From Thiohalobacter sp. (lineage in GTDB: Bacteria; Pseudomonadota; Gammaproteobacteria; Thiohalobacterales; Thiohalobacteraceae), in the NCBI RefSeq assembly GCF_027000115.1, contig NZ_JALTON010000037.1, positions 62,001 through 126,000 of the forward strand: a stretch of DNA of 64,000 bases, in the 5' to 3' direction. A program made the translations under genes and the position numbers. Below, piece by piece: positions 16,004 through 64,000 of this stretch. The first letter of the stretch is position 1, and every line of letters begins with the position of its first letter. A model generated the notes under the pieces. The model did not search any database. It was not told the DNA's origin and saw only the letters and a program-made list of their open reading frames with translations.

Positions 16004-16034
16004 GGATGCGCAGAGCACTCCGGGAGCGAATGAA

Positions 16035-16523: not shown

Positions 16524-16537
16524 AGGTGGCGGAGTAC

Positions 16538-17463: not shown

Positions 17464-17467
17464 CGCC

Positions 17468-19456: not shown

Positions 19457-19486
19457 CGGCACTGAACTGGAGACAGGTTTTTTCGC

Positions 19487-21247: not shown

Positions 21248-21255
21248 GTGCGCCG

Positions 21256-22710
21256 ATGACTGCCTTCGTGATGCCCGAATTCGCCCCGCTGGCTGCCGAG
21301 ATTTTCGTGCTGTCCGCGGCCTGTTTCATTCTGGTGCTGGATCTCTTTCTCAGCGACCGGGTCCGTATCGTCAGCTATTGGCTGAGCCAGCTCACCCTGG
21401 TCGGTGCGCTGGCCATCGTGGGCATGACCGAGGCCTATGAGACGCGGACCCTGGCCATGTTCGGCACCTTCGTCGCCGATCCGCTGGCCGCGCTGTCCAA
21501 GTCGGCCATCTTCATCGTTACCCTCGGCGTGTTCGCCTACAGTCGCAGCTATCTGAAGGACCGGGCGCTGTTCAAGGGCGAATACTATGTGTTGGGCCTG
21601 TTCGGCGTGCTGGGCATGATGGTGTTGATCTCCGCCCACAGCCTGCTCACCCTCTATCTCGGCCTTGAGCTGCTGGCGCTGTCGCTGTATGCGCTGGTCG
21701 CCTTTCAGCGGGATTCCGCCGCGGCCTCGGAGGCCGCAATGAAGTATTTCGTGCTCGGCGCCATGGCCTCCGGTCTGCTGCTCTATGGCATGTCCATTCT
21801 CTATGGCGTCACCGGGTCCATCGATCTGGAGGGCGTGGCGCAGGGCATCCGCGAGGCGACCGACACCGGGGCGCGGGTGGCGCTGGCCTTCGGACTGGTG
21901 TTCATCGTCATCGGCGTCGCCTTCAAGCTGGGCGCCGTGCCCTTCCACATGTGGGTTCCGGACGTGTATCAGGGCGCGCCGAGCAGCGTCACCCTCTACA
22001 TCGGCAGCGCGCCCAAGATTGCCGCCTTCGCCATGGCCATGCGGCTGCTGGCCGAGGCCAACGGGCCCATGCAGGCCGACTGGGGCGGCATGCTGGCCAT
22101 ACTCGCCGTGCTGTCGCTGTTCATCGGCAATGTCGTGGCCATCGCCCAGACCAACATCAAGCGCATGCTGGCCTATTCGACCATCTCCCATGTCGGTTTC
22201 CTGATGCTGGGCCTGCTGGCCGGCACGCCGGATGGCTACGGGTCGGCCCTCTTTTACGCCGTGACCTACGCACTGATGGCCGCCGGCGGCTTCGGCATGG
22301 TGGTGCTGCTCAGCCGCGCCGGCTTCGAGGCCGAGGCGCTGGACGACTACCGCGGGCTGAACCAGCGCAGCCCCTGGCTGGCGTTCATGATGCTGGTGCT
22401 CATGTTCTCCATGGCCGGGGTGCCACCCACGGTCGGCTTCTATGCCAAGCTGGCGGTGCTGCAGGCGGTCATCAACGTCGACATGGTCTGGCTGGCCCTG
22501 GTCGCCGTGGTCTTCTCGATCATCGGTGCCTTCTATTACCTGCGACTGGTCAAGCTGATGTACTTCGATGATCCGGCCGAGGCCGGTCCCCTGGCGGTGG
22601 CCGCGGAGCCGCGCTTCGTCATCAGCGTCAACGGCCTTGCCGTGCTCTGGCTGGGCCTGTTCCCCGGCACCCTCATGGCGGTCTGCATGGCCGCCATTCC
22701 GGGTACCTGA
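21256..22710 (+). CDS. nuoN: NADH-quinone oxidoreductase subunit N
   Basis: NuoN is the third antiporter-like proton pump, next to NuoK. In 484 residues it has LLTLYLGLELLALSLYALVA, KLGAVPFHMWVPDVYQGAPS (lysine of the proton path), YSTISHVGFLMLGL and FSMAGVPPTVGFYAKLAVL. It starts 8 bp after the inverted-repeat element. Only a weak Shine-Dalgarno (AGGTG) is visible, in part derived from the element boundary. Confidence 0.96.
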   Translation: MTAFVMPEFAPLAAEIFVLSAACFILVLDLFLSDRVRIVSYWLSQLTLVGALAIVGMTEAYETRTLAMFGTFVADPLAALSKSAIFIVTLGVFAYSRSYLKDRALFKGEYYVLGLFGVLGMMVLISAHSLLTLYLGLELLALSLYALVAFQRDSAAASEAAMKYFVLGAMASGLLLYGMSILYGVTGSIDLEGVAQGIREATDTGARVALAFGLVFIVIGVAFKLGAVPFHMWVPDVYQGAPSSVTLYIGSAPKIAAFAMAMRLLAEANGPMQADWGGMLAILAVLSLFIGNVVAIAQTNIKRMLAYSTISHVGFLMLGLLAGTPDGYGSALFYAVTYALMAAGGFGMVVLLSRAGFEAEALDDYRGLNQRSPWLAFMMLVLMFSMAGVPPTVGFYAKLAVLQAVINVDMVWLALVAVVFSIIGAFYYLRLVKLMYFDDPAEAGPLAVAAEPRFVISVNGLAVLWLGLFPGTLMAVCMAAIPGT

Positions 22711-48035: not shown

Positions 48036-48935
48036 CTAACCGAGCCCGCTGGTGACCAGAAAGTCCTGGAAGGCCCTCGCCGCCGCGGTCTGGATCTTTT
48101 TCTCGGGGCGCACCACATACCACTGTCGCTGCAGGGGCAGGCCGACGACGTCGAGCATGGCGATCTCGCCGCTGGCCAGCTCCGCCTGCACCGCGCTCTT
48201 GGAAATGATGGAGATGCCAAGGCCCGCTGCCACGGTCTGCTTGACGGCCTCGTTACTGCCCAGTTCCAGGCGAACGCTGAGCGGCACCTCGTGTTCGAGG
48301 AAGAAGCTCTCGCAGGCCAGCCGCGTGCCCGAACCCTGCTCACGCGCGATGAAGGATTCGCCGCCGAGCTGTTTCGGCCGGATCCGCTTGCGCCCGACCA
48401 GCGGGTGATCGGGGTAGGCTATGGCCACCAGCGGATTCTCCGCGAAGGGTTCGGCAAAGATGCGGGTGCTGTCCGGCGGCTGACCCAGGATGTAGAGATC
48501 GTCTTCGTTGCGACTCAGCCGGTCGAGGATGGCCTCGCGGTTGCCCACGAACAGGGATACGTCCAGGCCCGGATATTCGCGCGAGAATTCGCCGAGCAGG
48601 CGCGGTATGAAGTACTGGGCCGTGGTCAGCGCGGCCAGATGCAGGCTGCCCTTGTGCAGGCCTTCCATGGCAGCGAGATCCTGGGACAGCAGTTCCAGGC
48701 GGTCGAAGATGTCCCGGCAGGCGGCGGCAACCACCTTGCCGGTCTCGGTCAGATAAAGTTGCTTGCCCACCTGCTCGAGCAAGGGTTCACCGACGGCCTC
48801 GGCAAGCTGCTTAACCTGGATGGACACGGCAGGTGGCGTGAGATGCATCGCGCGGGCGGTCTGGGCCACGCTCATGTGGCGCGCGAGGGTATTGAAGATC
48901 TTGAGCTGGTGCAGGGTAGCGTGATGGAGTGACAT
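48036..48935 (-). CDS. cbbR: LysR-type regulator CbbR
   Basis: A 299-residue LysR activator with an N-terminal winged HTH (LHQLKIFNTLARHMSVAQTA, RAMHLTPPAVSIQVKQL) and a two-lobed effector domain (about 95-295). The sequence and its location next to dab, cbbLS and cso genes identify it as CbbR, the regulator of CO2 fixation genes that responds to metabolites of the Calvin cycle or redox state in other species. It is divergent from dabB; paired TTAA dyads lie in front of dabB and of cbbL. Confidence 0.9.
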   Translation of the reverse strand: MSLHHATLHQLKIFNTLARHMSVAQTARAMHLTPPAVSIQVKQLAEAVGEPLLEQVGKQLYLTETGKVVAAACRDIFDRLELLSQDLAAMEGLHKGSLHLAALTTAQYFIPRLLGEFSREYPGLDVSLFVGNREAILDRLSRNEDDLYILGQPPDSTRIFAEPFAENPLVAIAYPDHPLVGRKRIRPKQLGGESFIAREQGSGTRLACESFFLEHEVPLSVRLELGSNEAVKQTVAAGLGISIISKSAVQAELASGEIAMLDVVGLPLQRQWYVVRPEKKIQTAAARAFQDFLVTSGLG

Positions 48936-49003: not shown

Positions 49004-49125
49004 TATAGCCTGACGCAGAATGCAAGGCGCCCACGGGGTGGTGTGGCCAATGCAGCCGCCGGCCGGTGTGGACCGCATGCGCAGAATCTGCGGCCAGCGG
49101 CAGCGGGTGCCTGGAGGGGACACCT

Positions 49126-50805
49126 GTGCAGCAACTGCTACTTCTTCTGCCGCTGACGCCGCTGCTCTCGGCCTTGGCCGGCCTGCTGGCCGGACCTGCG
49201 CAGGGCCGGCGGGTGGCGCGAATCAGTCTCTGGGGCGCGGCTCTGGCATTCGGCCTGTCCGTGCTGTTGCTGGCGGCACGCGTGCTGGGCGACGCCGATG
49301 TCGTCGCGGCACTGCCGGGGGACTGGCCCTTTCTCCGGCTCGATCCACTGGGCGCGCTGATGGCCTGGGTGATCGCCGGCATCAGCCTGATCGTCCACGC
49401 CTACTCGGTGCGTTACATGGCCGAGGAACCCGGCCTGCCGCGCTATTTCATCCTGCTCGACCTTCTGGTTACCGCACTGTATGCCATGGTACTCGCCGGT
49501 GACCTGCTCACCCTGCTGGTGTCCTGGAACCTGATCGGCATCCTGCTGTTCTTCCTGCTGGGACACAATGTCAACAGTCGTGCCGCGAGCCGTTACGCGG
49601 GCTGGAGCCTGCTCACCTACCGGCTCGGGGATCTGCCGCTGATCCTGGCAGCGGCGCTGTTGTTCCAGGCTTATGGAACCTTTGATCTGGGCGCCATTTT
49701 CGATGCACTGCAGGCCGATCCCGGGCGTACCACCCTGGGTGGCTACCGGCTGGCCGAGGTGGTTGCGATGCTGGTGTCCATCTCCGCCTTCGCTCGCTCC
49801 GCCCAGTTCGTGCTGCATGCCTGGCTCCCCTACACGATGGAAGGACCCACACCCGTTTCGGCGCTGATGCATGCAGGCATCGTCAACGCCGGCGGTTTCA
49901 TCATCAACCGTTTCGCGCCGGTGTTCATCCACACCACCGAGGTGCTGCACTGGCTGTTCCTGATCGGCCTGGTCACGGCCATTGCCGGTTCCATTCTCAT
50001 GCTCGGACAGAACGACATCAAGAAATCGCTGGGCTATTCGACCATGGGGCAGATGGGCTTCATGATCATGGAATGTGGTGTGGGAGCCTTCTCTCTGGCC
50101 ATCTATCACCTGATCGCACATGGCATCTTCAAGGGTACGCTGTTCCTCGGTGCCGGCAGCATCATCAACGAGGCGCGGCGCAGCGACGGCGTACCCAAGG
50201 ATCCGCTCTATACCTTCGTGGTCGAACGCAGGCTGGCGGCCAGGAGACCGCCGTGGCTGTTGATGGCGCTGATGACGCTGGCAGTGCCTTCGTTCATTCT
50301 CGGCCTGGCCCACTGGATGGTGGACCAGGAGATCCTGCAAAAGCAGGGCGCCATCGTGCTGCTGTTCTTCGGCTGGGTCACCGGCGCCCAGTTGCTGTTT
50401 TCCACCTACAAGATGAAGACCGCGAACCTGCCCAGGCTGCTGGCCCTGATCATATTCTCGTTCACCATCGTGGTGATCGGCTACACGCTGGTTGCCCATG
50501 TGTTCGACCTCTTTCTTTATCCCGATCCGGAGATGCGCGCCGCGCTCTATGCCGCAGCAAACATCGACCTGTTCCTGTTCGAGCTGGTACTGGCCATGAT
50601 CGCCGTCATCGTGGTGCTGGGCTGGCTGCTGGCCTACTACGCGGACCAGAGAGGCGGGGTGCGGTCGGCCCGGCTGTCGTCACTCTGGCTACGTTTCTAT
50701 GCCCTGGTGTCGAGGGAATTCTATGTGCCGGACATCTACGGTCTCGTATCGCACTGGATGCTCAAGGTGGCGGAGCGCATCAATCGCCGCCTGAGGTGGC
50801 TGTGA
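49126..50805 (+). CDS. dabB: DabB, NuoL-like cation-channel subunit of the DAB inorganic carbon pump
   Basis: DabB belongs to the proton-conducting transporter (NuoL/MrpA) family and forms with DabA an energy-coupled bicarbonate accumulation system. The 559 residues hold about 14 TM helices with LVSWNLIGILLFFLLGHN, SAQFVLHAWLPYTMEGPTP (channel lysine position replaced by a Gln in this stretch), YSTMGQMGFMIMECG and HGIFKGTLFLGAGSII. It lacks the NuoL lateral-helix extension. The GTG start (49126) follows GGAGGGG. It lies 190 bp from divergent cbbR. Confidence 0.9.
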   Translation: MQQLLLLLPLTPLLSALAGLLAGPAQGRRVARISLWGAALAFGLSVLLLAARVLGDADVVAALPGDWPFLRLDPLGALMAWVIAGISLIVHAYSVRYMAEEPGLPRYFILLDLLVTALYAMVLAGDLLTLLVSWNLIGILLFFLLGHNVNSRAASRYAGWSLLTYRLGDLPLILAAALLFQAYGTFDLGAIFDALQADPGRTTLGGYRLAEVVAMLVSISAFARSAQFVLHAWLPYTMEGPTPVSALMHAGIVNAGGFIINRFAPVFIHTTEVLHWLFLIGLVTAIAGSILMLGQNDIKKSLGYSTMGQMGFMIMECGVGAFSLAIYHLIAHGIFKGTLFLGAGSIINEARRSDGVPKDPLYTFVVERRLAARRPPWLLMALMTLAVPSFILGLAHWMVDQEILQKQGAIVLLFFGWVTGAQLLFSTYKMKTANLPRLLALIIFSFTIVVIGYTLVAHVFDLFLYPDPEMRAALYAAANIDLFLFELVLAMIAVIVVLGWLLAYYADQRGGVRSARLSSLWLRFYALVSREFYVPDIYGLVSHWMLKVAERINRRLRWL

Positions 50806-50806
50806 C

Positions 50807-51583
50807 ATGAGCTGGCGGGAACTGGTGCCACTGGCCGTTCTGCTCCCTTTGTTTCCGGCCAGCATGCTGCCGAGTCTGCTCATGCAGCATGTCCGCAACG
50901 CCTGGGTCGCAGGCTTGTTTCTGTTGATCTGGTCGCAGGCGGGTGTGGGCCTGCTGCTTTGGCTGCAACCGGACGTGCCCCAGTGGCTGCAGTGGTGGGC
51001 GTTTGCGACTGCCTTTCTATATGGTTTTCGCGCCCTGGTACTCAATGAGGTTTCGGAATGGACCGGCTTCATGTTCGTGTCCCTGCTGGCCCTGTTCTGG
51101 TTCTTGCCCGTCGAGCGCATCCCGGCACCGGAGGCCCATATGCTTGCCCTGGTTGCGGTGGCGCCCCTGGTCGTTCTGCGCACGCTTTCCGGTCTGATGG
51201 CGGCCCGGTTCGGTTCTGCCTACCTGGGCCTGGTGGGGGGGCTGGTGCACGGTTACCCACGCCTGTCCGGTCTGGTCGCGCTCGGCATTCTGGCAGCCAT
51301 TGCGACGCCGCCTTTCCCGCTGTTCTTCCATTTGGTCGAGCTGCTTGGGCTGTTGCCCTTTTCGATGGCGGTTGCTCTGGTGACGGTCTGGTATTTCTGG
51401 GGCTGGGCGGGGGTGCGCCTGCTGCAACGGCTGGTTCTGGGGCCGGAACAGTGGCCGCAATACGGCATCGGCAGGGGGACACCCGATCTGTCACGTGCGG
51501 GGATGTGGACCCTGGCGTCGGTCTTTGTCGGCCTGGCGGTCATCGGATTGCGTGAGGCCATGCAGCTCGCGGGGGCAGGCTGA
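50807..51583 (+). CDS. Uncharacterised multi-helix membrane protein of the DAB operon
   Basis: The 258-residue protein, 1 bp after dabB and overlapping dabA by one base, has about seven to eight TM segments. Residues about 145-180 (GGLVHGYPRLSGLVALGILA and the following TPPFPLFFHLVELLG) resemble the C-terminal part of NuoM/MrpD-like channels near the SGLPGTSGF region, suggesting a truncated or diverged antiporter-like protein. No catalytic or metal motif is seen. A middle gene in DAB operons occurs in some other autotrophs, but its role is not established. The tight coupling argues that it belongs to the complex. Confidence 0.7.
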   Translation: MSWRELVPLAVLLPLFPASMLPSLLMQHVRNAWVAGLFLLIWSQAGVGLLLWLQPDVPQWLQWWAFATAFLYGFRALVLNEVSEWTGFMFVSLLALFWFLPVERIPAPEAHMLALVAVAPLVVLRTLSGLMAARFGSAYLGLVGGLVHGYPRLSGLVALGILAAIATPPFPLFFHLVELLGLLPFSMAVALVTVWYFWGWAGVRLLQRLVLGPEQWPQYGIGRGTPDLSRAGMWTLASVFVGLAVIGLREAMQLAGAG

Positions 51584-54500
51584 TGACGAGTGAACTCGGA
51601 CAGCGGCTGAGGATTCGCAGCCTGGTGTATGTCGCCGGGGAACAGATTCCCTATTTCTGGCCCATGCGCGCCTTCATTCATCACAACCCCCTGCATGGCT
51701 TCGAAGACCGCAACTTTGCCGAGGCGGTACGCGAGGGTACCGCACTGTTCCATGCCCGGGGTTATCTGGCTCGCGAGCAATACCAGCGCTACCTGGCACA
51801 GGGCAGGATAGACCGGGACCACCTGCGTCGCGAGATTGCCGCCTTTGTCGAGGACGATGGCGAGATTCTCGGCAGGCCGGTGCTCGACTGGGCGCTGGTG
51901 GATCTGACCGATGAGCCGGAACCGGTCGGCTGGGGGGATACCCGGGTAATCGGCGCGGAGGACCTGGCCGCCCTGTTGCAGGGCAGGCCATTGCCCGCGC
52001 GGCCGCTGCGGCGCGAGGCCTTGCGGCAGGAACTGGAGGCACGCTTTCTGAGCGGGATGCCGCTGTACGAGGTGCTCGACGCCCTGTTCGGCACGGAACT
52101 GGGTGCCGAACTGGACGAGTTGGTGATCAAGAGCTGCCTCGATTTCTTCGACGAGGGTCAGTCGGTCTGGGGCATGCCCGAACGGGAACAGGGATTCTTT
52201 CGTGCCTGGCGGGCGGTGGCGCTGCGCAACGGGCGCCTGTTCCTCAAGGGCCTGCACCTGCGGGAAGTCATGGGTGAAGCGGATGCCCCGGAGCAGGTGA
52301 TTGCCCAGGTGATGTCGCGGCTCGGTATCCCCGAACTGCTGTGGCAGGATTACCTGCGTCGCGAGATCGCACGCCTGCATGGCTGGGCGGGTTTCATCCG
52401 CTGGCGTTCGTCCGCCGCGCATTACCATTGGGCCCAGCGTTATCCCGCCGATCTGGTCGACTATGTCGCCGTCCGCCTGCTGTTCTCGGCGGCGCTTCTG
52501 CGCGAGGCGTCGCGCCACGGCCTGCCCGCCGACTACCCCGCCTTGCGGGCCTGGATGCGCGCGGAGCCCGAAGCCCTGTTTCTGCGCGAAGAGCTTTACG
52601 GGAGGCATGCGGTGCCTGCCCTGGCGGGGCGGGTCGAGCGTACCCTGTTACTTGGCCGGCGTCCCGGGATCGAGGCCCTGTTCGCCGAGTACATGGGTCA
52701 CAAGCGCGAGCTGGAGGCACGGACCGTGGGGACCCGGCTGACGTCGCTGGGCGAGCGCCTGGGTGTCGCCGCGGTGCTGTCCCGTTTGCCCGCAGCGGAA
52801 CTCGACCGTCTGTTGCGGGCCCTGGACCGGGTGGAGCGCAACGAAGGTCAGTGCTGGCTGCGCGCCATGGAGGCGCATGCCATCGACCGGCTGGTCGCTG
52901 GCGTGACCCCGGATGCCCGGGAACGTCGGGAGAAACGGCCCTTCGCCCAGGCCCTGTTCTGCATCGACACCCGTTCCGAGCGCATTCGCCGTCAACTGGA
53001 AGCCGCGGGCGACTACCAGACCTTCGGCATTGCCGGTTTCTTCGGCGTGCCGCTCAGTTTCATCGAGATCGGCAAGGGCAGCGAGACGCACCTGTGCCCG
53101 GTTCTGCTCACGCCGCGCAATCTGGTCGTGGAGATTCCCGGTTTCGAGTATCGCGACGAGGCTGCCGTCACGGCCCTGGGCAAGGTGGTCCATGAACTGA
53201 AGGAATCCATCCTCACGCCCTTCGTGACCGTGGAAGCGATCGGCCTGCTGTTCGGTTTCGACATGATCGGCAAGACCCTGTTCCCGGCGCTCTATGGCCC
53301 CTGGCGCAAGCGTCTGGCGCCGAAACGGGGCATTACGCGGCTGCTGGTGGACAAGCTGAGCCGTGAACGGGCGGACTCCATCGTGCGCGCCGTGCAGCGG
53401 GCGGTGATCGAGAAGGCCGTCGAGCAGGATTTCGGACTCCGGCCCGAGCACATCACCGATGACACGGTGCGGACCCTGCGCGAGGCGGCCATGGGCAAGG
53501 CCGAGGTGGACCGCGCGGCGCTGGCGACTCTCGGGCTTGATGACGATGGCGTTGCCGATCTGGTAGAACGCCTGCGCGAGGTTTATCTGATCAATCCGGC
53601 CTTCGTGCGGGTGCAGATGGAGCGTCTGGGCCGGATCGGTTTCACCGTCGACGAGCAGGCCGGCTATGTGGCGACGGCGTTGCGTTCCATCGGCCTGACC
53701 AGCGGCTTTTCCCGTTTCGTGCTGCTGGTCGGTCATGGCAGCACCTCCGAGAACAACCCCTATGAATCGGCCCTCGATTGTGGCGCCTGCGGCGGTAACC
53801 ATGGACTGGTGAACGCCCGCGTGCTTGCGCAGATGGCCAACAGCCCCCAGGTGCGCCGGCGCCTGCGGCGGCAGGGTATCGACATACCGGACGACACCTG
53901 GTTCATGCCGGCGCTGCACGATACCACCACCGACGAGATCCGCCTGGAGGACGTGGAGTTGATTCCGCCGGCGCATCTCATCTATATCGAGCGCCTGCGC
54001 AACGGGCTCATCTCCGCCGCCCGCCTGTGTGCGGCCGAGCGCGTGCCCACGCTGGCCAGGGAGTCCGGGGCCGATGATCCTGCCCGCGCCTGGCGCATCG
54101 CCCGGCGCAATGCCCTGGACTGGTCGCAGGTGCGGCCGGAGTGGGGGCTGTCGGGGAATGCCTATTTCATCATCGGTCGGCGGGCCATCACTCGCGAGCT
54201 GCCGCTCCATGGCCGGGCCTTTCTGCATTCCTACGACTATCGACTGGATCCCCGGCGTCGGCTGCTGGAGAACATTCTCACCGGGCCGCTGGTGGTGGGG
54301 CAGTGGATCAACATGGAGCACTATTTCTCGACCGTGGACAACGAGCGCTTCGGCAGCGGCAGCAAGGTCTATCACAATGTCGCGGGTTGCTTCGGGGTCA
54401 TGACCGGCAATCTCAGCGACCTGCGCACCGGGTTGCCGGCGCAGACGGTGCTCAGGGATGGCATGCCCTACCATGAACCCATGCGGCTGATCACCCTGGT

Positions 54501-54702
54501 CGAGGCCCCGCTGGCGCATGCCCGGCTTGCGCTGGAGGAGGTGGCCTCGGTCAAGCGTCTGGTACACAACGAATGGATCCGCTTCCTGGTGGTCGACCGG
54601 GAGGCCGGGAAGGTATGGGAATTCGACCGCGGCGACTGGCTGCAACGCCCCGGCCCCGAGAGCGGACGGCCGGGCGAATCCGTGGAGGCGGCATCATCAT
54701 GA
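51583..54702 (+). CDS. dabA: DabA, beta-carbonic-anhydrase-like subunit of the DAB inorganic carbon pump
   Basis: DabA (DUF2309) is a cytosolic Zn protein that hydrates CO2 to bicarbonate unidirectionally when coupled to DabB. In the 1039 residues the Zn/active-site signature is ALFCIDTRSE (C460, D462) and LLVGHGSTSENNPYESALDC (H718, C733). The H-to-C spacing of 15 equals that of characterised DabA. The protein is much longer than the short DabA type, so it is the long form. The start follows a one-base overlap with the membrane protein gene, and the stop overlaps the PII-like gene by 4 bp. Confidence 0.93.
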   Translation: MTSELGQRLRIRSLVYVAGEQIPYFWPMRAFIHHNPLHGFEDRNFAEAVREGTALFHARGYLAREQYQRYLAQGRIDRDHLRREIAAFVEDDGEILGRPVLDWALVDLTDEPEPVGWGDTRVIGAEDLAALLQGRPLPARPLRREALRQELEARFLSGMPLYEVLDALFGTELGAELDELVIKSCLDFFDEGQSVWGMPEREQGFFRAWRAVALRNGRLFLKGLHLREVMGEADAPEQVIAQVMSRLGIPELLWQDYLRREIARLHGWAGFIRWRSSAAHYHWAQRYPADLVDYVAVRLLFSAALLREASRHGLPADYPALRAWMRAEPEALFLREELYGRHAVPALAGRVERTLLLGRRPGIEALFAEYMGHKRELEARTVGTRLTSLGERLGVAAVLSRLPAAELDRLLRALDRVERNEGQCWLRAMEAHAIDRLVAGVTPDARERREKRPFAQALFCIDTRSERIRRQLEAAGDYQTFGIAGFFGVPLSFIEIGKGSETHLCPVLLTPRNLVVEIPGFEYRDEAAVTALGKVVHELKESILTPFVTVEAIGLLFGFDMIGKTLFPALYGPWRKRLAPKRGITRLLVDKLSRERADSIVRAVQRAVIEKAVEQDFGLRPEHITDDTVRTLREAAMGKAEVDRAALATLGLDDDGVADLVERLREVYLINPAFVRVQMERLGRIGFTVDEQAGYVATALRSIGLTSGFSRFVLLVGHGSTSENNPYESALDCGACGGNHGLVNARVLAQMANSPQVRRRLRRQGIDIPDDTWFMPALHDTTTDEIRLEDVELIPPAHLIYIERLRNGLISAARLCAAERVPTLARESGADDPARAWRIARRNALDWSQVRPEWGLSGNAYFIIGRRAITRELPLHGRAFLHSYDYRLDPRRRLLENILTGPLVVGQWINMEHYFSTVDNERFGSGSKVYHNVAGCFGVMTGNLSDLRTGLPAQTVLRDGMPYHEPMRLITLVEAPLAHARLALEEVASVKRLVHNEWIRFLVVDREAGKVWEFDRGDWLQRPGPESGRPGESVEAASS

Positions 54703-55025
54703 AAGAGCTGAATCTGACCCCCATCAAGAAACTGGAAATCATCATCGATGGTGAACATCGGGCCTTCGCGACCGACCTGCTCGATCGGGCCGGGGTCAAG
54801 GGCTACACCATCATCAACAATCTGTCGGGGAAGGGCAGTCACGGCTTCCATGCCGGGCACCTGATGTTCAACGAGGACGATGTGCTGATCATGATCATCG
54901 CTGCCGTCCCCGAGGAACTGGTCGAACCCATCCTCGAGGGCTTCTCGCCCTTCTTCAACAGCCATTCCGGGGTGGTGTTCGTGTCGGATATCCAGGTCAC
55001 CCGGCTGGTCAAGTTCCGCGACTGA
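54699..55025 (+). CDS. PII-like signalling protein linking dab and cbb/cso genes
   Basis: A 108-residue PII-superfamily protein (GlnB/CutA-like fold) with beta-alpha-beta segments KKLEIIIDGEHRAFATDLLD and VKGYTIINNLSGKGSHG. The T-loop is short (HGFHAGHLMFNEDDV) and has no uridylylated Tyr motif (YRGAEY), so it is not a nitrogen PII. Related proteins from carboxysome loci (CPII) bind ADP/AMP and bicarbonate. It overlaps dabA by 4 bp, so it should be coexpressed with the transporter. It probably tunes the pump according to bicarbonate or energy state. Confidence 0.8.
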   Translation: MKELNLTPIKKLEIIIDGEHRAFATDLLDRAGVKGYTIINNLSGKGSHGFHAGHLMFNEDDVLIMIIAAVPEELVEPILEGFSPFFNSHSGVVFVSDIQVTRLVKFRD

Positions 55026-55253: not shown

Positions 55254-56666
55254 ATGGCAAAAAACTACCAGGCGGGCGTTAAAGAGTACCGCGAAATGTA
55301 TTGGACGCCGGACTATGTTCCGCTCGATACGGACCTGCTGGCCTGCTTCAAGTGCACCGGTCAGCCCGGCGTGCCCCGGGAAGAGGTTGCCGCGGCCGTG
55401 GCTGCCGAGTCCTCGACCGGTACCTGGAGTACCGTGTGGTCCGAGCTGCTGACCGACCTGGAGTACTACAAGGGCCGTGCCTACCGCATCGAGGACGTTC
55501 CGGGTGACTCCGAGTCCTTCTATGCCTTCATTGCCTATCCCATCGACCTGTTCGAGGAAGGCTCGGTGGTGAACGTGCTGACCTCGCTGGTCGGCAACGT
55601 GTTCGGCTTCAAGGCCCTCAAGCATCTGCGTCTGGAAGACATCCGCTTCCCGATCGCCTACATCAAGACCTGCGGTGGCCCGCCGGCCGGCATCCAGGTC
55701 GAGCGCGACCGCTTCAACAAGTACGGTCGTCCGATGCTGGGCTGCACCATCAAGCCCAAGCTGGGCCTGTCGGCCAAGAACTACGGCCGTGCGGTGTATG
55801 AGTGTCTGCGCGGCGGCCTGGACCTGACCAAGGACGACGAGAACGTCAACTCCCAGCCCTTCATGCGCTGGCGTGACCGTTTCGAGTTCGTCGCCGAGGC
55901 CGTGATGAAGGCCCAGGCCGAGACCGGCGAGCGCAAGGGTCACTACCTGAACGTCACCGCGTCCACGCCGGAAGAGATGTACAAGCGCGCCGAGTTCGCC
56001 AAGGAACTGGGCATGCCCATCATCATGCACGACTTCCTGACCGGCGGTTTCACCGCCAACACGGGTCTGGCCAACTGGTGCCGCGACAACGGCATGATGC
56101 TGCACATCCATCGCGCCATGCACGCGGTCATCGACCGTCATCCCAAGCACGGCATCCACTTCCGCGTGCTGGCCAAGTGTCTGCGCCTGTCCGGTGGCGA
56201 TCACCTGCACACCGGTACCGTCGTCGGCAAGCTCGAGGGCGACCGCGCCGCCACCCTGGGCTTCGTCGATCAGCTGCGTGAGTCCTTCGTGCCGGAAGAT
56301 CGTTCCCGTGGTGTGTTCTTCGATCAGGACTGGGGCTCCATGCCGGGCGTGTTCGCCGTGGCCTCCGGTGGCATCCACGTCTGGCACATGCCGGCGCTGG
56401 TCACCATCTTCGGCGACGACTCCGTGCTGCAGTTCGGTGGCGGCACGCAGGGTCATCCCTGGGGCAACGCTGCCGGTGCCGCGGCCAACCGCGTTGCGCT
56501 GGAAGCCTGCGTCAAGGCCCGCAACGAGGGCCGCGAGCTGGAGCGCGAGGGTGGCGACATCCTGCGCGAGGCGGCGCAGCACAGCCCCGAGCTGGCCATG
56601 GCCATGGAGACCTGGAAGGAGATCAAGTTCGAATTCGAGACCGTGGACAAGCTGGACGTCGGCTGA
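55254..56666 (+). CDS. cbbL: Rubisco large subunit, form IA
   Basis: CbbL carboxylates ribulose-1,5-bisphosphate. The 470-residue sequence has the carbamylated lysine in [11 protein letters not shown] (K193), the [14 protein letters not shown] active-site segment, loop 6 lysine K326 in [12 protein letters not shown], and [14 protein letters not shown] for phosphate binding. The N-terminus and placement with csoS2 identify the carboxysome-associated form IA (IAc) type. The start follows AGGAGAG. It is the first gene of the cso operon. Confidence 0.98.
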
Positions 56667-56721
56667 TCGCCCGACTGCCACGAACTAGACCGTATCGAAT
56701 CGAATCCAAGAGGACACTATC

Positions 56722-57066
56722 ATGCAGAACGTTTCGGAAATGGGCGATTACGTCACCAAGCGCACCCTGGAAACCTTCGGCTTCCTGCCGAAGTTCTCCC
56801 AGGAAGAGGTCTACAAGCAGATCGCCTACATCCTGGCCCAGGGCTGGACGCCGGCCATCGAGCACGAGCATCCCAGCCAGGCCTTCAATCACTACTGGAC
56901 CATGTGGAAGCTGCCGTTCTTCGGCGAGCAGGATCTGGCTCACGTGGTGGCCGAACTCGAGGCCTGCCACCGCGCCTATCCGGATCACCACATCCGTCTG
57001 CTGGGTTATGACAACTACACCCAGAGTCAGGGCCTGGCCTTCGTGGTCTACGAAGGTCGCGGCTGA
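56722..57066 (+). CDS. cbbS: Rubisco small subunit
   Basis: The 114-residue CbbS caps the L8 core and completes the L8S8 enzyme. Characteristic segments are [20 protein letters not shown]-like text (starting [14 protein letters not shown]), [39 protein letters not shown] and [20 protein letters not shown]. It lacks the betaA-betaB loop of plant forms, as expected for form IA. It lies 55 bp after cbbL. Confidence 0.98.
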
Positions 57067-57082
57067 GCCGCAGGCACTGATC

Positions 57083-57106
57083 GCCGCCCCCGTGCAAGGG
57101 GGCGGC
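57083..57106 (+). promoter_or_regulatory. GC-rich hairpin between cbbS and csoS2
   Basis: A perfect 9-bp stem GCCGCCCCC / GGGGGCGGC with loop GTGCAA. No T-run follows, so it is not a normal terminator. It may stabilise or process the mRNA and raise cbbLS over csoS2 transcripts, as such an imbalance is reported for cso operons. Confidence 0.6.
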
Positions 57107-57146
57107 CACCCGAATTTGAACCCACTTCAAACATGAAGGGTTTGTG

Positions 57147-59441
57147 ATGGCACAGACTGCAAACACCTCTGCGGGCAGCGCCCGGCAGGCAGCCCTCGCC
57201 CGGCGTCGCGCCATGTCGACTCAGGGCAAGGCGGGCATCCAGTCGGCTTCCGCCGGCCGTACCGCCGCGCCGCGCGCCTCCGCCACCGGCAGCCAGCCGG
57301 TGGCCGCACCGACCGTGGCGGCACGGCCCGCCACCGCAACCGGTACCGGTGCGCGCGCCGCCTCCAGGGCGCGTCGCCGCGCCATGTCCGAACGGGGCAA
57401 GGCCGGGGTTCCGAGCAGCGACCGCCAGCGCAGCGAGATCCTGCGCAAGGGCGCTGGCGCCGCCAAGGCCGGCGGTCGCCGCGAGGGCGGCTGTGGCTGC
57501 GGCTGCAAGAAGGGCGAGGCACCCGCGGTGAGCGATACGCAGACCCCGAAGACTGAAGTGGTTGCACCCGCGGCACCTGCCGGAGGCGGCATGTTGCCGC
57601 GGATGCAGGTACGGGTGACTGCCAGCCCGGGTCGGGCAGCCTCCGTGGCGCGTCGCCGCGCGCTGTCGGCGCGTGGCAAGGCCGGTGTCAGCGCCAACGG
57701 CCTGACCCCGGCGCAGACCGCGCGGGCGGCCAATCCCAAGATGTCGGGTCGCGAGCTGGCCCAGGCGCTGCGGGCGCAGCGCAGCCAGCGTGGCAGCGCC
57801 GGCGAGAAGAAGCGTTCAGAGCCCGCCGGCCGCCGTCGTCCACGCAAGGCGGACAGCGCCGAAAAGGGTGCCGCCGATGCCTACTGGAAGGTGGGTGTCA
57901 CCGAGACCTCGCATGGCCAGCAGGTAACCGGCACGATCGTCGGTCGCAGTGTCAAGACCACCGGGGACGAGCCCAGCACCTGCCGGACCATTACCGGTAC
58001 CGAATACATGGGGGCCGACATATTCCGCGAGTTCTGCCAGGCCGAGCCGCCCGCCGCGCCCTCGAAGGTGCGCGTGACCTCGACCAGTCACGGGCGTTTC
58101 GTGACCGGTACCGAGGTCGGCCGCAGTCCCAAGGTCACCGGCGACGAGCCGGGTACCTGCAAGCAGGTCACCGGGACCGACTACCTCAGTGCCGACCAAC
58201 TGCAGAGCTTCTGCGGTACCGGCGCGGAACCGACTCCGACCCGGATCACCGTATCCCACACGGCCAAGGGCAAGCCGGTCACCGGCAACAATGTCGGTCG
58301 TTCTCCGAAGGTGACGGGTGACGAGCCCGGTGCCGCCCGCGAACTCACCGGAACCCAGGTGATGGAGCCCGGCAACGGCGCCTACCCGTCCAAGGTGGGC
58401 GTGACCGAGACGGTCCGCGGCGGCCAGGTCACCGGAACCCTGGTAGGTCGCAGCGAGCGCGTCACCGGCGACGAGCCGGGTGCCTGCCGCAATGTTACCG
58501 GCGACGACTACATCGGTGCCGAGCAGTTCCAGCAGTTCTGTGGCACCAAGCCGGAACCGCAGGATGCCAAGGTGGGTCTGTCGCGCACGCTGAAGGGCAA
58601 GACGGTGAGCGGCACCATGACCAGTCACTCGCCGAAGATCACCGGTGACGAGCCTGGCCTGTGCAAGGCCATCACGGGTACGCCCTATGCCGGTGCCGAG
58701 CAGTACCGTGACTACTGCGAGCCCGAGCAGGCGCAGCTTGCCGAGGCCCGCGCGCCCGCACGCCGTGCCACGCCGGGCCCGGTGATGACCGGTATCCAGC
58801 CCGGCATCAATGGCAAGATGACCGGTGCCGAAAAGGGTGCCTGCGAGCCGCTGACCGGAACACCCTATGTGGGGGCCGACCAGTTTGCCCAGGCCTGTCC
58901 GACCGCGCCCGCCGAGCCGGGCAGCCCGGACTTCCCCCAGACCTTCGGCGAAGCACCCTGGGGCCAGTTCAGCGTCGAACCGCCGAGCCATGCCGCGGCC
59001 GTCGCGCGCGAGCCACACGGCGTGACCGGGACCCAGTACGAACGGGGCCAGATCACCGGCCCGTTCGACAAGGCCTCCGGCAAGGTCACCGGCACCGAGG
59101 AATTCCGTTTCGGTCGTGGCGCGCCCGCGCAGGCATCCACGCCCGAGCCGGCACCGATGGTGGACGGTCGCGTCAAGCCGCGTGTCAGTGGCGAAGGGAT
59201 GGATGCGGGTCCGCGCATCACCGGAGATGACTGGGACCGTGGCGACCGTGTGACCGGCACCGAAGGCATGTCTGCGGTGCGGCGCAATCCAACCCGGCGT
59301 CCCGAGCGGGGTGCGACCAGCGCCATGCTGCCACCCAAGCGCAACGAAGAGGTCGCCGAGCCGGTGAGCAAGGTGACCGGCGGCAGCGGCAACACCGAAA
59401 AGGGTGCGCTCATTACCTATTCGGGAGGCGCGCGCGGCTGA
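57147..59441 (+). CDS. csoS2: Carboxysome assembly scaffold CsoS2
   Basis: CsoS2 is the disordered repeat scaffold that binds Rubisco and the shell. The 764 residues hold four N-repeats (ALARRRAMSTQGKAG; RARRRAMSERGKAG; VARRRALSARGKAG; and a weaker ELAQALRAQRSQRG), a Cys cluster GGCGCGCKKG, five M-repeats (about 248-297, 307-357, 365-412, 416-466 and 474-523; core VTGT..GRS..VTGDEPG) with an M-like sixth at 545-588, and a C-terminal domain ending NTEKGALITYSGGARG. Repeat three lacks the paired cysteines. It starts at ATG 57147 rather than the adjacent GTG. Confidence 0.96.
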   Translation: MAQTANTSAGSARQAALARRRAMSTQGKAGIQSASAGRTAAPRASATGSQPVAAPTVAARPATATGTGARAASRARRRAMSERGKAGVPSSDRQRSEILRKGAGAAKAGGRREGGCGCGCKKGEAPAVSDTQTPKTEVVAPAAPAGGGMLPRMQVRVTASPGRAASVARRRALSARGKAGVSANGLTPAQTARAANPKMSGRELAQALRAQRSQRGSAGEKKRSEPAGRRRPRKADSAEKGAADAYWKVGVTETSHGQQVTGTIVGRSVKTTGDEPSTCRTITGTEYMGADIFREFCQAEPPAAPSKVRVTSTSHGRFVTGTEVGRSPKVTGDEPGTCKQVTGTDYLSADQLQSFCGTGAEPTPTRITVSHTAKGKPVTGNNVGRSPKVTGDEPGAARELTGTQVMEPGNGAYPSKVGVTETVRGGQVTGTLVGRSERVTGDEPGACRNVTGDDYIGAEQFQQFCGTKPEPQDAKVGLSRTLKGKTVSGTMTSHSPKITGDEPGLCKAITGTPYAGAEQYRDYCEPEQAQLAEARAPARRATPGPVMTGIQPGINGKMTGAEKGACEPLTGTPYVGADQFAQACPTAPAEPGSPDFPQTFGEAPWGQFSVEPPSHAAAVAREPHGVTGTQYERGQITGPFDKASGKVTGTEEFRFGRGAPAQASTPEPAPMVDGRVKPRVSGEGMDAGPRITGDDWDRGDRVTGTEGMSAVRRNPTRRPERGATSAMLPPKRNEEVAEPVSKVTGGSGNTEKGALITYSGGARG

Positions 59442-59468
59442 GGGCCTGTCCCCCGCTGAGTCCGGCTT

Positions 59469-60983
59469 ATGCATCACGCACGTCGCAACCGACCTCGCTC
59501 CCTGTCCTGGGCGATGCCGGGGCAGCAGCCCGGCACGCCCGGTACAGCCGCACCGGCGGCACCGGTGCGCCATGGCAGCGGACATCCGCTGGTGGCCGAG
59601 ACGGAGAATGCGCGGCTGCGCGACTACGAGCAGCGGGTGAAGGCGTCATTCGACAACATCGTGCCGGTGCTCAAGCGCATCTCGGCGCTGCAGCACGAGG
59701 AAGACTTTGTCCCTCGCGCGCAGGCCATGGCCCGCGAGGCGTTGGGTTTCGAGCTGCCGGAAGCCGTGCTCGAGAACACCTGGGTGGAACCGCTGGACAT
59801 GCGGCGGTTGTTTGCGGCCTGTGTGTTCGAGACCTATCACCGGTTCTGCGACGATTTCTTCCGCGCGGATCCGCTGGGTTTCGATTCGCGCGAGGAAGCG
59901 GCCTTCGAGCAGTTCCTGCAGGAGTGCGGATTCCATATCCTGGACATTTCGCCCTGTGCCGACGGCCGGCTTGCGCACCTGGTGCGTTACGTGCTTCGGC
60001 TGCCGCATCGCGCCGTGCGCCGCAAGTCCTACGCGGGCGCGATGTTCGATGTGGATGACAGCATCCAGAAATGGGTCGAAACGGAGATGCTCCGTTACCG
60101 GGAGGGGCGACCGAATACCGCGGATGCGCCCACCCGCTACCTGAAGGTGGTGGCCTACCACTTCAGCGAGATCGACCCCGACCATGGTGGTTGCGCCGCG
60201 CATGGATCGGATGCCCTGAAGGCGGCGACGGCGGGCCTCGACCGGCTGTATGCCTTCCAGCAGGCCATCGAGAACAGTTTCTGCTGTGGTGCCTCGATCG
60301 ATCTGCTGCTGATTGGCGTGAACACGGACAACGATGCCATTCGCGTGCACGTGCCGGACGGGTCGGGACGGATGGATGTGGCCCGGTTTGTGGATGTCGA
60401 GGCCCTGTACGAGGCAACGCAAGGTGTTGCGCAGCAGTCGGCCCGCGATCGGGTCACGGCGGCCATCCGCGAGACGAGTCCGGATGTCGCCGAGGGCATG
60501 GCGCGGCTGATCGAGCGCCTGCTGATCGGCAACCTGTCGCAGATCGACTATGTGCGTCGGTACGAGGGTGGCAGCTATCCGGATGTGGATCATGCCGAGC
60601 GCTTCATCGGCGCCGGCATCGGTTTCGAGGAGATCCAGCTCCGCAACCTGACCTATTTTGCGTACCTGCGCACGGTGGAGGAAGCGGCAACCGATGTCGA
60701 TGTCGGCATCAAGATCTTCAGGAAGCTGAATGTCTCGCGCGGTCTGCCGGTGCCTGTCGTGGTGCGATTCGATTATCACGGGCAGGTGCCAGGCGCACGG
60801 GAACGCGCGATCGAGCACTGCGGGCGGGTTGCCGGTGCGTTGCACCGCAGGTTTGAAGATCTGTCCCGCCAGGGTCTGCTGCACACCATGCAGGTGGTGC
60901 GTGATTGTGGTGGGTGTGGCCTGATCGAGGTGCTGAAACGTTCCATCGACGAGCCCACTGGGGCTTGCGGGGGTAGTGAGTGA
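59469..60983 (+). CDS. csoSCA: Carboxysomal carbonic anhydrase CsoSCA
   Basis: CsoSCA (CsoS3, epsilon-type, a beta-CA variant) converts imported bicarbonate to CO2 inside the carboxysome. The zinc site is readable in ISPCADGRLAH (C163, D165, R167) with H231 (AYHFSEI) and C242 (DHGGCAAHG), and the spacings match those of the characterised enzyme. The N-terminus (residues 1-40) is disordered and Pro/Ala/Arg-rich, which is the region that binds Rubisco in other species. Length is 504 residues. Confidence 0.95.
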   Translation: MHHARRNRPRSLSWAMPGQQPGTPGTAAPAAPVRHGSGHPLVAETENARLRDYEQRVKASFDNIVPVLKRISALQHEEDFVPRAQAMAREALGFELPEAVLENTWVEPLDMRRLFAACVFETYHRFCDDFFRADPLGFDSREEAAFEQFLQECGFHILDISPCADGRLAHLVRYVLRLPHRAVRRKSYAGAMFDVDDSIQKWVETEMLRYREGRPNTADAPTRYLKVVAYHFSEIDPDHGGCAAHGSDALKAATAGLDRLYAFQQAIENSFCCGASIDLLLIGVNTDNDAIRVHVPDGSGRMDVARFVDVEALYEATQGVAQQSARDRVTAAIRETSPDVAEGMARLIERLLIGNLSQIDYVRRYEGGSYPDVDHAERFIGAGIGFEEIQLRNLTYFAYLRTVEEAATDVDVGIKIFRKLNVSRGLPVPVVVRFDYHGQVPGARERAIEHCGRVAGALHRRFEDLSRQGLLHTMQVVRDCGGCGLIEVLKRSIDEPTGACGGSE

Positions 60984-61240
60984 AGATTTGTCAGGTTGTC
61001 AGGCCGCTGGTGGCGACGAACCGCATACCCGGCCTGGAGCACAAGCATTTGCAGGTGGTGCAGGACGGAAGCTCGCAGCTCGTCGCCGTGGACGCGGTGG
61101 GCTGCATTCCGGGTGACTGGGTGATCTGCGTCGGCAGCTCGGCGGCGCGCGAGGCGGCCGGCAGCAAGGAGTACCCCAGCGATCTGACCATCGTCGGCAT
61201 CATCGATCACTGGCCGCCCGAGGAAGAAGGCGGGGCCTGA
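60980..61240 (+). CDS. csoS4A: Carboxysome shell vertex protein CsoS4A
   Basis: An 86-residue BMC-P (EutN/CcmL) protein that forms pentamers at shell vertices. Family segments are MKICQVVRPLVATNRIPGLE, LVAVDAVGCIPGDWVI and VGSSAAREAAGSKEYPSDLT. It begins at a GTG overlapping the csoSCA stop and is directly followed by csoS4B (1-bp overlap). Confidence 0.96.
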   Translation: MKICQVVRPLVATNRIPGLEHKHLQVVQDGSSQLVAVDAVGCIPGDWVICVGSSAAREAAGSKEYPSDLTIVGIIDHWPPEEEGGA

Positions 61241-61494
61241 TGGACATACTTCAGGTCGAAGGGCCGCTGGTCTGCACCCGTCGCATCGACGGCCTGAAGC
61301 AGATCAGCCTGCGCATCCTGAAGGACCGGCGCGGCAAGCGCGTGGTGGCCGTGGACACGGTGGGCGCGAGGGAAGGCAACTGGGTGTTCACGGTCAGCGG
61401 CTCGGCCGCACGGTATGCGGCGGGAGATTTCGAGATTCTCACCGATCTCACCATCGGCGGAATCATCGATCACTGGGAAGAGGGTATGGCATAG
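61240..61494 (+). CDS. csoS4B: Carboxysome shell vertex protein CsoS4B
   Basis: An 84-residue BMC-P pentamer protein, a paralogue of CsoS4A. It shows MDILQVEGPLVCTRRIDGLK, VAVDTVGAREGNWVFTVSGS and LTIGGIIDHWEEG. Both pentamers are needed for a closed shell in studied organisms. It is the last gene before a 79-bp gap that may reset expression for the csoS1 genes. Confidence 0.96.
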   Translation: MDILQVEGPLVCTRRIDGLKQISLRILKDRRGKRVVAVDTVGAREGNWVFTVSGSAARYAAGDFEILTDLTIGGIIDHWEEGMA

Positions 61495-61525
61495 CAGCAG
61501 ACGGTTCGGGAAGCGGATCCGGATC

Positions 61526-61551
61526 ACGATTTCGAAAGTTCAATCGTTTTT
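61526..61551 (+). promoter_or_regulatory. Weak terminator-like hairpin before the csoS1 genes
   Basis: ACGATT pairs with AATCGT across a 10-nt loop and is followed by a run of T. In the 79-bp gap between csoS4B and the first csoS1 it might attenuate readthrough or mark an mRNA end. The stem is short, so the call is tentative. Confidence 0.35.
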
Positions 61552-61573
61552 GACTTAGCAGGAGACTGAAAAG

Positions 61574-61873
61574 ATGGCCAACGAAAACTACGGCATTGCA
61601 CTGGGAATGATCGAGACGCGCGGTCTGGTGCCCGCGATCGAGGCGGCAGACGCCATGACCAAGGCAGCGGAAGTACGCCTGATCGGCCGCGAATTCGTCG
61701 GTGGTGGCTATGTCACCGTGATGGTTCGTGGCGAGACGGGCGCGGTCAACGCTGCTGTTCGCGCTGGCGCCGATGCCTGCGAACGCGTGGGTGACGGCCT
61801 GGTGGCTGCCCACATCATTGCACGTCCCCACCGTGAGGTGGAGCCCGTTCTGCCCACCGGCAGCGCTGGCTGA
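61574..61873 (+). CDS. csoS1: Carboxysome shell hexamer protein CsoS1, copy 1
   Basis: A 99-residue BMC-H protein of the main shell facets, forming hexamers with a central pore for small anions. It has IETRGLVPAIEAADAMTKAA, VRLIGREFVGGGYVTVMVRG and GDGLVAAHIIARPHREVEPV. It differs from copies 2 and 3 only at the third residues (NENYG versus NDTYG) and in the C-terminal tail (LPTGSAG). The start follows AGCAGGAGA. Confidence 0.97.
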   Translation: MANENYGIALGMIETRGLVPAIEAADAMTKAAEVRLIGREFVGGGYVTVMVRGETGAVNAAVRAGADACERVGDGLVAAHIIARPHREVEPVLPTGSAG

Positions 61874-61927
61874 ACACTGACTGAACGAAGGTTTTTCAAC
61901 TCAACTCAAGTACAGGAGTAAGGAACG

Positions 61928-62230
61928 ATGGCCAACGATACCTACGGCATTGCACTCGGCATGATCGAGACCCGCGGGTTGGTGCCGGCAATCGAGGCGG
62001 CCGATGCCATGACCAAGGCAGCGGAAGTGCGCCTGATCGGTCGCGAATTCGTCGGTGGTGGCTATGTCACCGTGATGGTTCGTGGCGAGACGGGTGCCGT
62101 CAATGCTGCGGTTCGCGCCGGTGCCGACGCCTGCGAGCGCGTGGGTGACGGCCTGGTGGCTGCCCACATCATCGCGCGTCCGCACCGCGAGGTGGAGCCG
62201 GTCCTGCCCACGGGTTCGGCGGAAGCCTGA
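61928..62230 (+). CDS. csoS1: Carboxysome shell hexamer protein CsoS1, copy 2
   Basis: A 100-residue BMC-H paralogue, with the same core as copy 1 and a tail LPTGSAEA. Its nucleotide sequence shares long identical tracts with copy 3, including about 68 bp from GGCTATGTCACCGTGATGG to the alanine-rich helix. The start follows AGGAGTAAGG. Confidence 0.97.
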   Translation: MANDTYGIALGMIETRGLVPAIEAADAMTKAAEVRLIGREFVGGGYVTVMVRGETGAVNAAVRAGADACERVGDGLVAAHIIARPHREVEPVLPTGSAEA

Positions 62231-62275
62231 TCCGGTACGGTTAAACTCAATCATCATACATTCAGGAGAAACACG

Positions 62276-62581
62276 ATGGCCAATGATACCTATGGCATCG
62301 CGCTTGGCATGATCGAGACCCGTGGTCTGGTGCCGGCAATCGAGGCGGCAGACGCCATGACCAAGGCTGCCGAGGTGCGTCTGATCGGTCGCGAGTTCGT
62401 TGGTGGCGGCTATGTCACCGTGATGGTTCGTGGCGAGACGGGTGCCGTCAATGCTGCGGTTCGCGCCGGTGCCGATGCCTGCGAGCGTGTGGGTGACGGC
62501 CTGGTGGCTGCCCACATCATCGCGCGTCCCCATCGCGAGGTGGAGCCGGTACTGGAGCAGACGGGCAAGTCCCGCTCCTGA
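62276..62581 (+). CDS. csoS1: Carboxysome shell hexamer protein CsoS1, copy 3
   Basis: A 101-residue BMC-H paralogue. The core is identical to copy 2, but the tail differs (EQTGKSRS), so it could be the variant equivalent to the longer-tailed CsoS1B of other species. The start follows AGGAG. The tandem triplication supplies the large amount of facet protein. Confidence 0.96.
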   Translation: MANDTYGIALGMIETRGLVPAIEAADAMTKAAEVRLIGREFVGGGYVTVMVRGETGAVNAAVRAGADACERVGDGLVAAHIIARPHREVEPVLEQTGKSRS

Positions 62582-62626
62582 GCGGTCTGAGCGAACAGCC
62601 GATTGAGCAGTAACGGAGAGCAGGGC

Positions 62627-63079
62627 ATGCCAGCATTCGGTATGGATCCGCGTATACTCGGCTATCTTGGCCGCGCGCTCAGCCTCGAGCTGTCGGCGGT
62701 CCAGAACTACAGTACCCAGGCCCGCCTGGCCGAGACCTGGGGGCTGGCCGATGCCGCGCGGCGATTCAAGACCGAAGCGGCAGAGGAGCTGGGGCATGTC
62801 GAGCGGGTCATCGGCAGGATGCTCGCCCTGGGTGCCGCCCCCAATGCTTCCATGCTGCGTCCGGCCGGCGTCGGACGCAATCTCCGCGAACTGCTCGAGT
62901 TCGATCATGCCTTCGAGAACGATCTGGTCGATCTGTACTCGGATGCGGTCGCCTATTCGTCGAGGATCGGAGACGCCGACAGCCGGGTGTTCTTCGAGGG
63001 GCTGCTGGCCGAAGAGAAGGCGCATGCGCGCGAACTCCAGACCTGGCTGGCCGAGCTTGAGGTCGGGGCAGCGGTTTGA
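62627..63079 (+). CDS. Ferritin-like (bacterioferritin-family) protein of the cso operon
   Basis: A 150-residue four-helix bundle. Di-iron ligands are visible as E in LSLELSAVQNY, ExxH in EELGHVER, a second Glu (ENDLVDLYSDAV region) and ExxH in LAEEKAHAREL. Such proteins occur in many alpha-carboxysome operons, but their role there (iron storage or redox) is not settled. I choose the ATG at 62627, preceded by GGAG (62614-62617); a TTG 24 bp earlier is an unlikely start. Confidence 0.87.
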   Translation: MPAFGMDPRILGYLGRALSLELSAVQNYSTQARLAETWGLADAARRFKTEAAEELGHVERVIGRMLALGAAPNASMLRPAGVGRNLRELLEFDHAFENDLVDLYSDAVAYSSRIGDADSRVFFEGLLAEEKAHARELQTWLAELEVGAAV

Positions 63080-63112
63080 GATCCGCGGAAGAGGAATCGG
63101 TGAGGGCAAGGC

Positions 63113-63370
63113 GTGCTTGATGACTGGCGTGAACACGAACGTCCGCCGAGGCTGGAGCGGCGCTATACCTTCGCAGGTTATCCCGAACTTCGGGAGTTTC
63201 TCGATCGCGCTGCGGAGATCTCGGAGGCAATGGATCTCTATCCGGATCTGAGCTTCGGCCGCGAGTATGTCAACGTGACCATCCACGGTTACGAAGAAGG
63301 GTTGACCGAGGCCTGTCGCGAGCTGGCGGACAAACTCGACGCCTTGCGCCAGAGCCTGGCGAAGGAGTAG
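63113..63370 (+). CDS. Rubisco assembly factor acRAF (PCD-like)
   Basis: An 85-residue protein of the pterin-4a-carbinolamine dehydratase fold, with RRYTFAGYPELREFLDRAAE and DLSFGREYVNVTIHGYEEGL. The alpha-carboxysome member, acRAF, has lost dehydratase activity and helps Rubisco assembly (family knowledge). It starts with GTG 63113. It lies between the ferritin-like gene and mcdA, its usual place in cso operons. Confidence 0.88.
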   Translation: MLDDWREHERPPRLERRYTFAGYPELREFLDRAAEISEAMDLYPDLSFGREYVNVTIHGYEEGLTEACRELADKLDALRQSLAKE

Positions 63371-63377
63371 GGCCGGC

Positions 63378-64000
63378 ATGCCGACGATCGCGGTGGTTGG
63401 GAGCAAGGGCGGCGTCGGCAAGACCACCCTGGCGATCAACCTCGCGGCCGGTCTCGCACAGCGCGGGTCGGTGCTGTTGCTGGACGCCGATCCCCAGCAG
63501 TCGGCCTTTCAGTGGAGCCTGATCGACGAGCGCGAGAACACGCCGGCGGTGCTGGCCGAATCGGCACGCGTGGGAGACGCAGTTCCGGAGCTGGCATCGG
63601 ACCAGGACTTCCTGGTGATCGATTGTCCGCCGGCGGTCAATGCGATGCAGACGCTGGAGGCGCTCCAGGTGGCGGATCTGGCCCTGGTTCCGGTTCAGCC
63701 TTCACCGATGGATCTGTGGGCCACGGTGCACATCGTCGAGACCATCGCCGGCGCCAGGGCGGTCAATCCCCGGCTCGGAGCCTCGTTGGTCATCAATCAG
63801 CTCGAGAGCCGGACCGTGCTCTCGCGGTTTGCGCGCATGGCGGTGGAAGAGCTGGAGCTGGACGTGACGGAGACGGCGATACGTCGTCGCGCCATCTACC
63901 GCAACAGTGTGCTGGAAGGCAGGACCGTATACGCGATGGGCAAGCGGGGCGAGCCGGCGGTTCTCGAAATGAACGCATTGATTGAAGAGGTTATTGGATC
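63378..64000 (+). CDS. mcdA: ParA-type ATPase McdA for carboxysome positioning (partial)
   Basis: The first 207 codons of a ParA/MinD-family ATPase; the gene runs off the window end. The deviant Walker A is VVGSKGGVGKTTLAINLAAG with the signature lysine, the Walker A' is LLLDADPQQSAFQW, and Walker B is FLVIDCPPA. In alpha-carboxysome operons this protein (McdA) spaces carboxysomes along the nucleoid with McdB, whose gene would lie downstream. It starts at ATG 63378, 8 bp after acRAF. Confidence 0.88.
   Translation, partial: MPTIAVVGSKGGVGKTTLAINLAAGLAQRGSVLLLDADPQQSAFQWSLIDERENTPAVLAESARVGDAVPELASDQDFLVIDCPPAVNAMQTLEALQVADLALVPVQPSPMDLWATVHIVETIAGARAVNPRLGASLVINQLESRTVLSRFARMAVEELELDVTETAIRRRAIYRNSVLEGRTVYAMGKRGEPAVLEMNALIEEVIG

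Follow-up and report, generated by a model that had tools for sequence, protein, structure and literature searches.

The small membrane gene situated between dabB and dabA in Thiohalobacter sp., here termed X, encodes a protein homologous to the C-terminal half of the complex I subunit NuoM, in which intramembrane protonatable residues have been replaced, and it is the obligatory third gene of long-DabA operons of the DAB1 type. The explanation we favour, with a probability of roughly 0.6, is that X is an obligatory proton-silent scaffold subunit of the DAB1 vectorial CO2-hydration complex, which would sit on DabB and engage an insert adjoining the transmembrane finger of DabA.

In the window (the entire 64,000-nucleotide stretch that was analysed) X forms part of a dabB-X-dabA-CPII cassette located directly upstream of an alpha-carboxysome operon (55254..63998, + strand; Pfam assignments), the latter comprising cbbL, cbbS, csoS2, csoSCA, csoS4AB, two csoS1-type shell genes, a ferritin-like gene and parA. 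The dabB gene (49126..50805, +) specifies DabB1, a NuoL/Mrp-type antiporter subunit of 559 residues with matches to PF00361 (E 6e-46), PF00662 and DabB2 (9rd0_B, E 1.3e-33); two candidate GTG start codons are present, at 49066 and 49126, and alignment with relatives favours the latter. The long DabA1 encoded by dabA (51583..54702, +; 1039 residues; PF10070, E 7e-258) retains the conserved residues C460, D462, H718 and C733 and the finger glutamate E551, as judged from invariant columns and an alignment of the finger. The next gene encodes a CPII-type PII regulator (54699..55025, +; PF00543; PDB 5d4n, E 1e-51), and as it overlaps dabA by 4 nt (ATGA) and almost every X-type locus with sufficient downstream sequence has a PII gene 3′ of dabA, a bicarbonate- or nucleotide-sensing PII regulator may be part of the DAB1 unit. 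A CbbR-like LysR regulator gene (48036..48935, - strand; PF00126/PF03466; best NCBIfam match CbbR, under its cut-off) is divergent from the cassette. The features of DAB1, namely a long PF10070 DabA, a PF00361 DabB upstream, a small membrane gene between them, PII downstream and carboxysome genes nearby, are all found in the window. Genes for respiratory complex I (nuoH, nuoL, nuoM and nuoN) are located at 14996-22710, approximately 27 kb upstream of the cassette, and were used as the comparison set for NuoM and NuoN.

X itself (50807..51583, +) is a hneap_0908-type, half-length NuoM-like protein of 258 residues, identified from its open reading frame and coupling, a family alignment, homology to NuoM and AF2/Foldseek analysis. 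In agreement with the preliminary description of this DNA, its ATG start codon lies 1 nt beyond the dabB stop codon (TGA at 50803-50805; TGACATG) and its TGA stop codon (51581-51583) shares one nucleotide with the ATG of dabA at 51583 (TGATG). The same description considered three genes to be translationally linked, and while the coupling stands, the overlap between dabA and the CPII gene brings the number of coupled genes to four. Most relatives of X begin 1 nt after dabB (spacing between -4 and +12 nt) and overlap dabA by 4 nt (ATGA). These relatives are 237-274 residues in length, mostly 245-258, share approximately 30-50% identity and were present at this position in each of the 35 additional loci that were read, and a separate profile scan, made on named genomes, retrieved 80 loci with the dabB-X order in every one and dabA next in all 79 whose contig reaches it. 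Given this constancy of position, together with 19 invariant columns in the family alignment, X is a real gene and not a chance open reading frame. Few charges are conserved (R75, R152 and D227), and no natural fusion of X to DabB or DabA was seen in 115 loci. The window protein yielded no match when scanned against Pfam and NCBIfam and scored below the curated cut-offs for NuoM (TIGR01972/PF00361), and PF00361 matches just 2 of 35 relatives, and weakly. As had been noted from the sequence, X is a membrane protein of antiporter type that has no functional motif.

The ancestry of X became evident from profile and structure comparisons. A profile built from 35 X sequences matches mycobacterial complex I NuoM (E 2.5e-7, chain residues 287-492), and two further antiporter subunits were aligned in the same register, with insignificant E-values. 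The AF2 model of X (pLDDT 92.5, pTM 0.91) retrieved ND4, NuoM and MrpD in Foldseek, with a TM-score of up to 0.83 when normalized by the length of X as compared to approximately 0.45 by that of the target, indicating that X corresponds to one half of the antiporter fold. Its alignment to NuoM-like proteins begins at the KxPxFP motif of TM7, where FLPLFP is near-invariant in X, and ends at TM14. The homology of X to NuoM accordingly starts at TM7 and continues to the C-terminus, TM1-6 being absent, and the antiporter likeness that had been assigned to its second half is correct in kind, yet extends over nearly the whole protein. While X thus resembles NuoM, ND4 and MrpD in homology and fold over TM7-TM14, it differs from them in the absence of TM1-6, of the intramembrane protonatable residues and of scores above the family cut-offs. 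An origin of X as a duplicate of DabB was considered and is unsupported, the hhalign score against DabB1 being 22, as compared to approximately 42 for NuoM, approximately 42 for the clade-C protein discussed below and 32 for NuoN.

The proposal that X might provide a proton path did not survive inspection of the channel positions. Protonatable residues are found in none of 100 X sequences at the positions of the NuoM TM7 Lys, TM7 His, TM8 Lys, TM10 His, TM11 His and TM12 Glu, all six being occupied by hydrophobic or small residues in 100 of 100 sequences, and the only retained NuoM position among those compared is a loop Asp/Glu (E81). Judged by these replacements, X does not form a proton path on its own and is predicted to be incapable of carrying protons as NuoM does. 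It is consequently improbable that X supplies a second half-channel that DabB lacks, even though it is homologous to exactly that half of NuoM which bears the TM9-13 bundle, and DabB2 has no counterpart of the NuoL TM9-13 bundle (PMC13144422); the task in question is performed in DAB2 by the finger glutamate, which DabA1 has kept as E551. The same replacements could be read in another way, as once-polar channel positions that have become hydrophobic might form a conduit delivering CO2, the substrate of the DAB complex (PMC13144422), to the active site of DabA. We regard such a role as very improbable, as the DAB2 site is reached by tunnels within DabA in a system that has no X, and as CO2 readily crosses lipid.

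The distribution of X ties it to one form of DabA. Among 369 genomes of the class, PF10070 is present in 83 and X in 36, and in all 36 X adjoins DabA, 51-170 nt upstream of the DabA match and on the same strand. The matches of complete DabA partners span 2910-2979 nt, and in the class scan no X was observed beside a DabA of 2430 nt or less, except for one DabA cut by the end of its contig. The 80 loci of the second scan include Thiobacillus, Sulfuriferula, Thioalkalivibrio, Nitrococcus, Guyparkeria, Acidithiobacillus and others, and X-type cassettes occur across groups of sulfur, nitrite and iron oxidisers. The gene order that had been put forward as support for a subunit role is therefore conserved, and almost all long-DabA operons of the DAB1 type have X linked to both dabB and dabA. 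That X adjoins a long DabA in 36 of 36 genomes and never a short one, coupled with the invariable dabB-X order of the second scan, argues for its role as a subunit. In five loci (L136, L154, L166, L185 and L189) a second dabB-dabA pair lies in tandem just upstream of dabB-X-dabA, making the two DAB types neighbours.

An alignment of 13 DabA sequences partnered by X, 16 long ones not partnered by it and 17 short ones revealed several segments restricted to long DabA, and one restricted to X-partnered DabA. The latter is an insert of approximately 75 residues (DabA residues 567-640, or 569-640 of the window DabA as delimited in this alignment; 53281..53502, +) directly after the transmembrane finger, an element described for DAB2 (PMC13144422), and E551 of the window DabA aligns with the finger residue Glu444 of DabA2. 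A profile of the insert matches 104 of 104 full-length DabA encoded with X and none of 33 encoded without it. In the class the insert is found in 37 genomes, these being the 36 with X and one other in which the DabA match starts 226 nt from the start of the contig, placing the upstream gene outside the assembly. The association between X and the insert could mirror common descent of a single operon type rather than contact between the two proteins.

Long DabA is also encoded in a second operon architecture. Sixteen long-DabA loci that have no X were examined, and in at least 12 of them a NuoM-like protein is encoded directly upstream of dabA, that is, in the slot of X; these proteins are full-length wherever the contig reaches, and three of three scanned exceed the NDH_I_M cut-off. 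Examples among L065-L078, such as L074:5134-6642 (-) and L067:5202-6692 (-), score approximately 480 bits with TIGR01972 and have kept the NuoM channel residues. The profile of X matches their C-terminal half, with scores above those of complex I NuoM, and in a tree of X and antiporter C-terminal halves X is placed, on a very long branch, beside proteins of clade C of the 2017 COGNAT analysis. That survey of gene neighbourhoods distinguished operons in which a PII gene lies downstream from those that carry an additional NuoM (PMC5700660). The clade-C subunit thus resembles X in its slot directly upstream of long dabA, in having the highest X-profile scores among antiporters and in being nearest to X in the tree, but differs in its length of approximately 495 residues and its retained channel residues, while its operons differ from DAB1 in carrying dabB 3′ of dabA and a DabA without the X-linked insert. 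These similarities are suggestive of X being a shortened form of the full-length NuoM-like subunit of dabA operons. The finger glutamate, which corresponds to DabA2 Glu444 and is reportedly essential in DAB2, is not conserved in the long DabA without X (L063-L080), where most sequences have a non-acidic residue at this position and some have Asp, and on the basis of these residues the energy-coupling route of such DabA may differ from that of DAB2. At one of these loci the gene directly upstream of dabA (L080:5105-6808, -) belongs to the sulfate-permease (SulP) family. Two upstream open reading frames in other long-DabA loci were considered as X-like and proved to be unrelated, encoding T2SSE and PhaC.

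The second architecture also bears on whether X might be a chaperone that assists the assembly or insertion of long DabA and DabB and is absent from the mature complex. Tight translational coupling and a lack of functional residues would suit an assembly factor, and X folds confidently alone when DabB, at a similar alignment depth, does not (mean pLDDT 67.9, a quality insufficient for searching by fold). The NuoM-type fold of X, and the full-length NuoM-like protein found at the same slot elsewhere, are more in keeping with a stoichiometric subunit, and we consider the chaperone unlikely.

For the preferred reading of X as a proton-silent subunit the following scheme can be envisaged. A NuoM-type ancestor would have given rise to X by loss of TM1-6, with TM7-14, including the broken TM12, being kept, and conduction of protons would have ceased as each intramembrane Lys, His or Glu was lost. 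X may pack on the NuoL-like DabB in the manner in which the second half of NuoM is packed against NuoL in complex I. Through the DabA insert X could hold or sense the DabA finger, thereby stabilising or gating it, and so would help to couple proton flow, through DabB and the finger, to catalysis in DabA. The basic chemistry does not require X, as DAB2 works with two subunits. More tentatively, and with confidence well short of even, at least three membrane architectures of DAB might be distinguished: one with a NuoL-like subunit only (DAB2), one with an additional full NuoM-like subunit and one with an additional proton-dead half-NuoM (DAB1). X would then be a pseudo-antiporter clamping or gating the DabA finger by way of the insert, the membrane arm having been reduced stepwise, with its dead half retained to provide mechanical coupling.

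The suggestion that a third DAB gene would constitute new biology has been overtaken by the literature, and X is the third gene of the known DAB1 system rather than part of a new one. For Halothiobacillus neapolitanus the order NuoL, putative transmembrane hypothetical protein, 1046-residue DUF2309 protein and PII was printed in 2015 (PMC4633670); in 2020 the plasmid pFA-DAB1 carried the interstitial gene, and dabAB1 together with that gene was functional in E. coli (PMC7714395); and in 2026 DAB1 of this organism was described as a three-subunit system including the small transmembrane protein hneap_0908 (PMC13144422). The gene at the same slot in Halothiobacillus/Guyparkeria loci with DAB1 synteny (L165, L172 and L190) is a homologue of X, and the probable orthology of X to hneap_0908 is based on synteny and homology within the genus, not on the H. 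neapolitanus sequence. The window and the H. neapolitanus locus share the order of NuoL-type protein, transmembrane hypothetical protein, DUF2309 protein of approximately 1040 residues and PII, as well as the carboxysome neighbourhood, and differ in that the window cassette directly precedes cbbL and is divergent from a LysR gene; in the Halothiobacillus metagenome-assembled genome L165 the order is ParA, CbbO, dabB, X, dabA, PII, CbbQ. DAB2 (DabA2/DabB2, PDB 9rd0) and Tcr_0853/0854 have in common with DAB1 the DabA and DabB families, the active-site motifs and the finger glutamate, but comprise two subunits with a short DabA and possess neither X nor the post-finger insert. A literature search, with the original 2019 DAB paper outside its coverage, found no functional deletion of X. 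What is new here is the obligatory nature of X, its homology to NuoM from TM7 to the C-terminus, the loss of the protonatable residues, the pairing with the DabA insert and the second operon class with a full NuoM-like subunit.

In many chemolithoautotrophs DAB1 pumps are located next to carboxysomes, and they are also employed to engineer carbon-concentrating mechanisms, for which the third gene has usually been included unexamined. Regarding X as a probable proton-silent half-NuoM paired with the DabA finger insert would turn an unnamed gene into a testable part and offer a route to understanding how DAB1 differs from the structurally solved DAB2.
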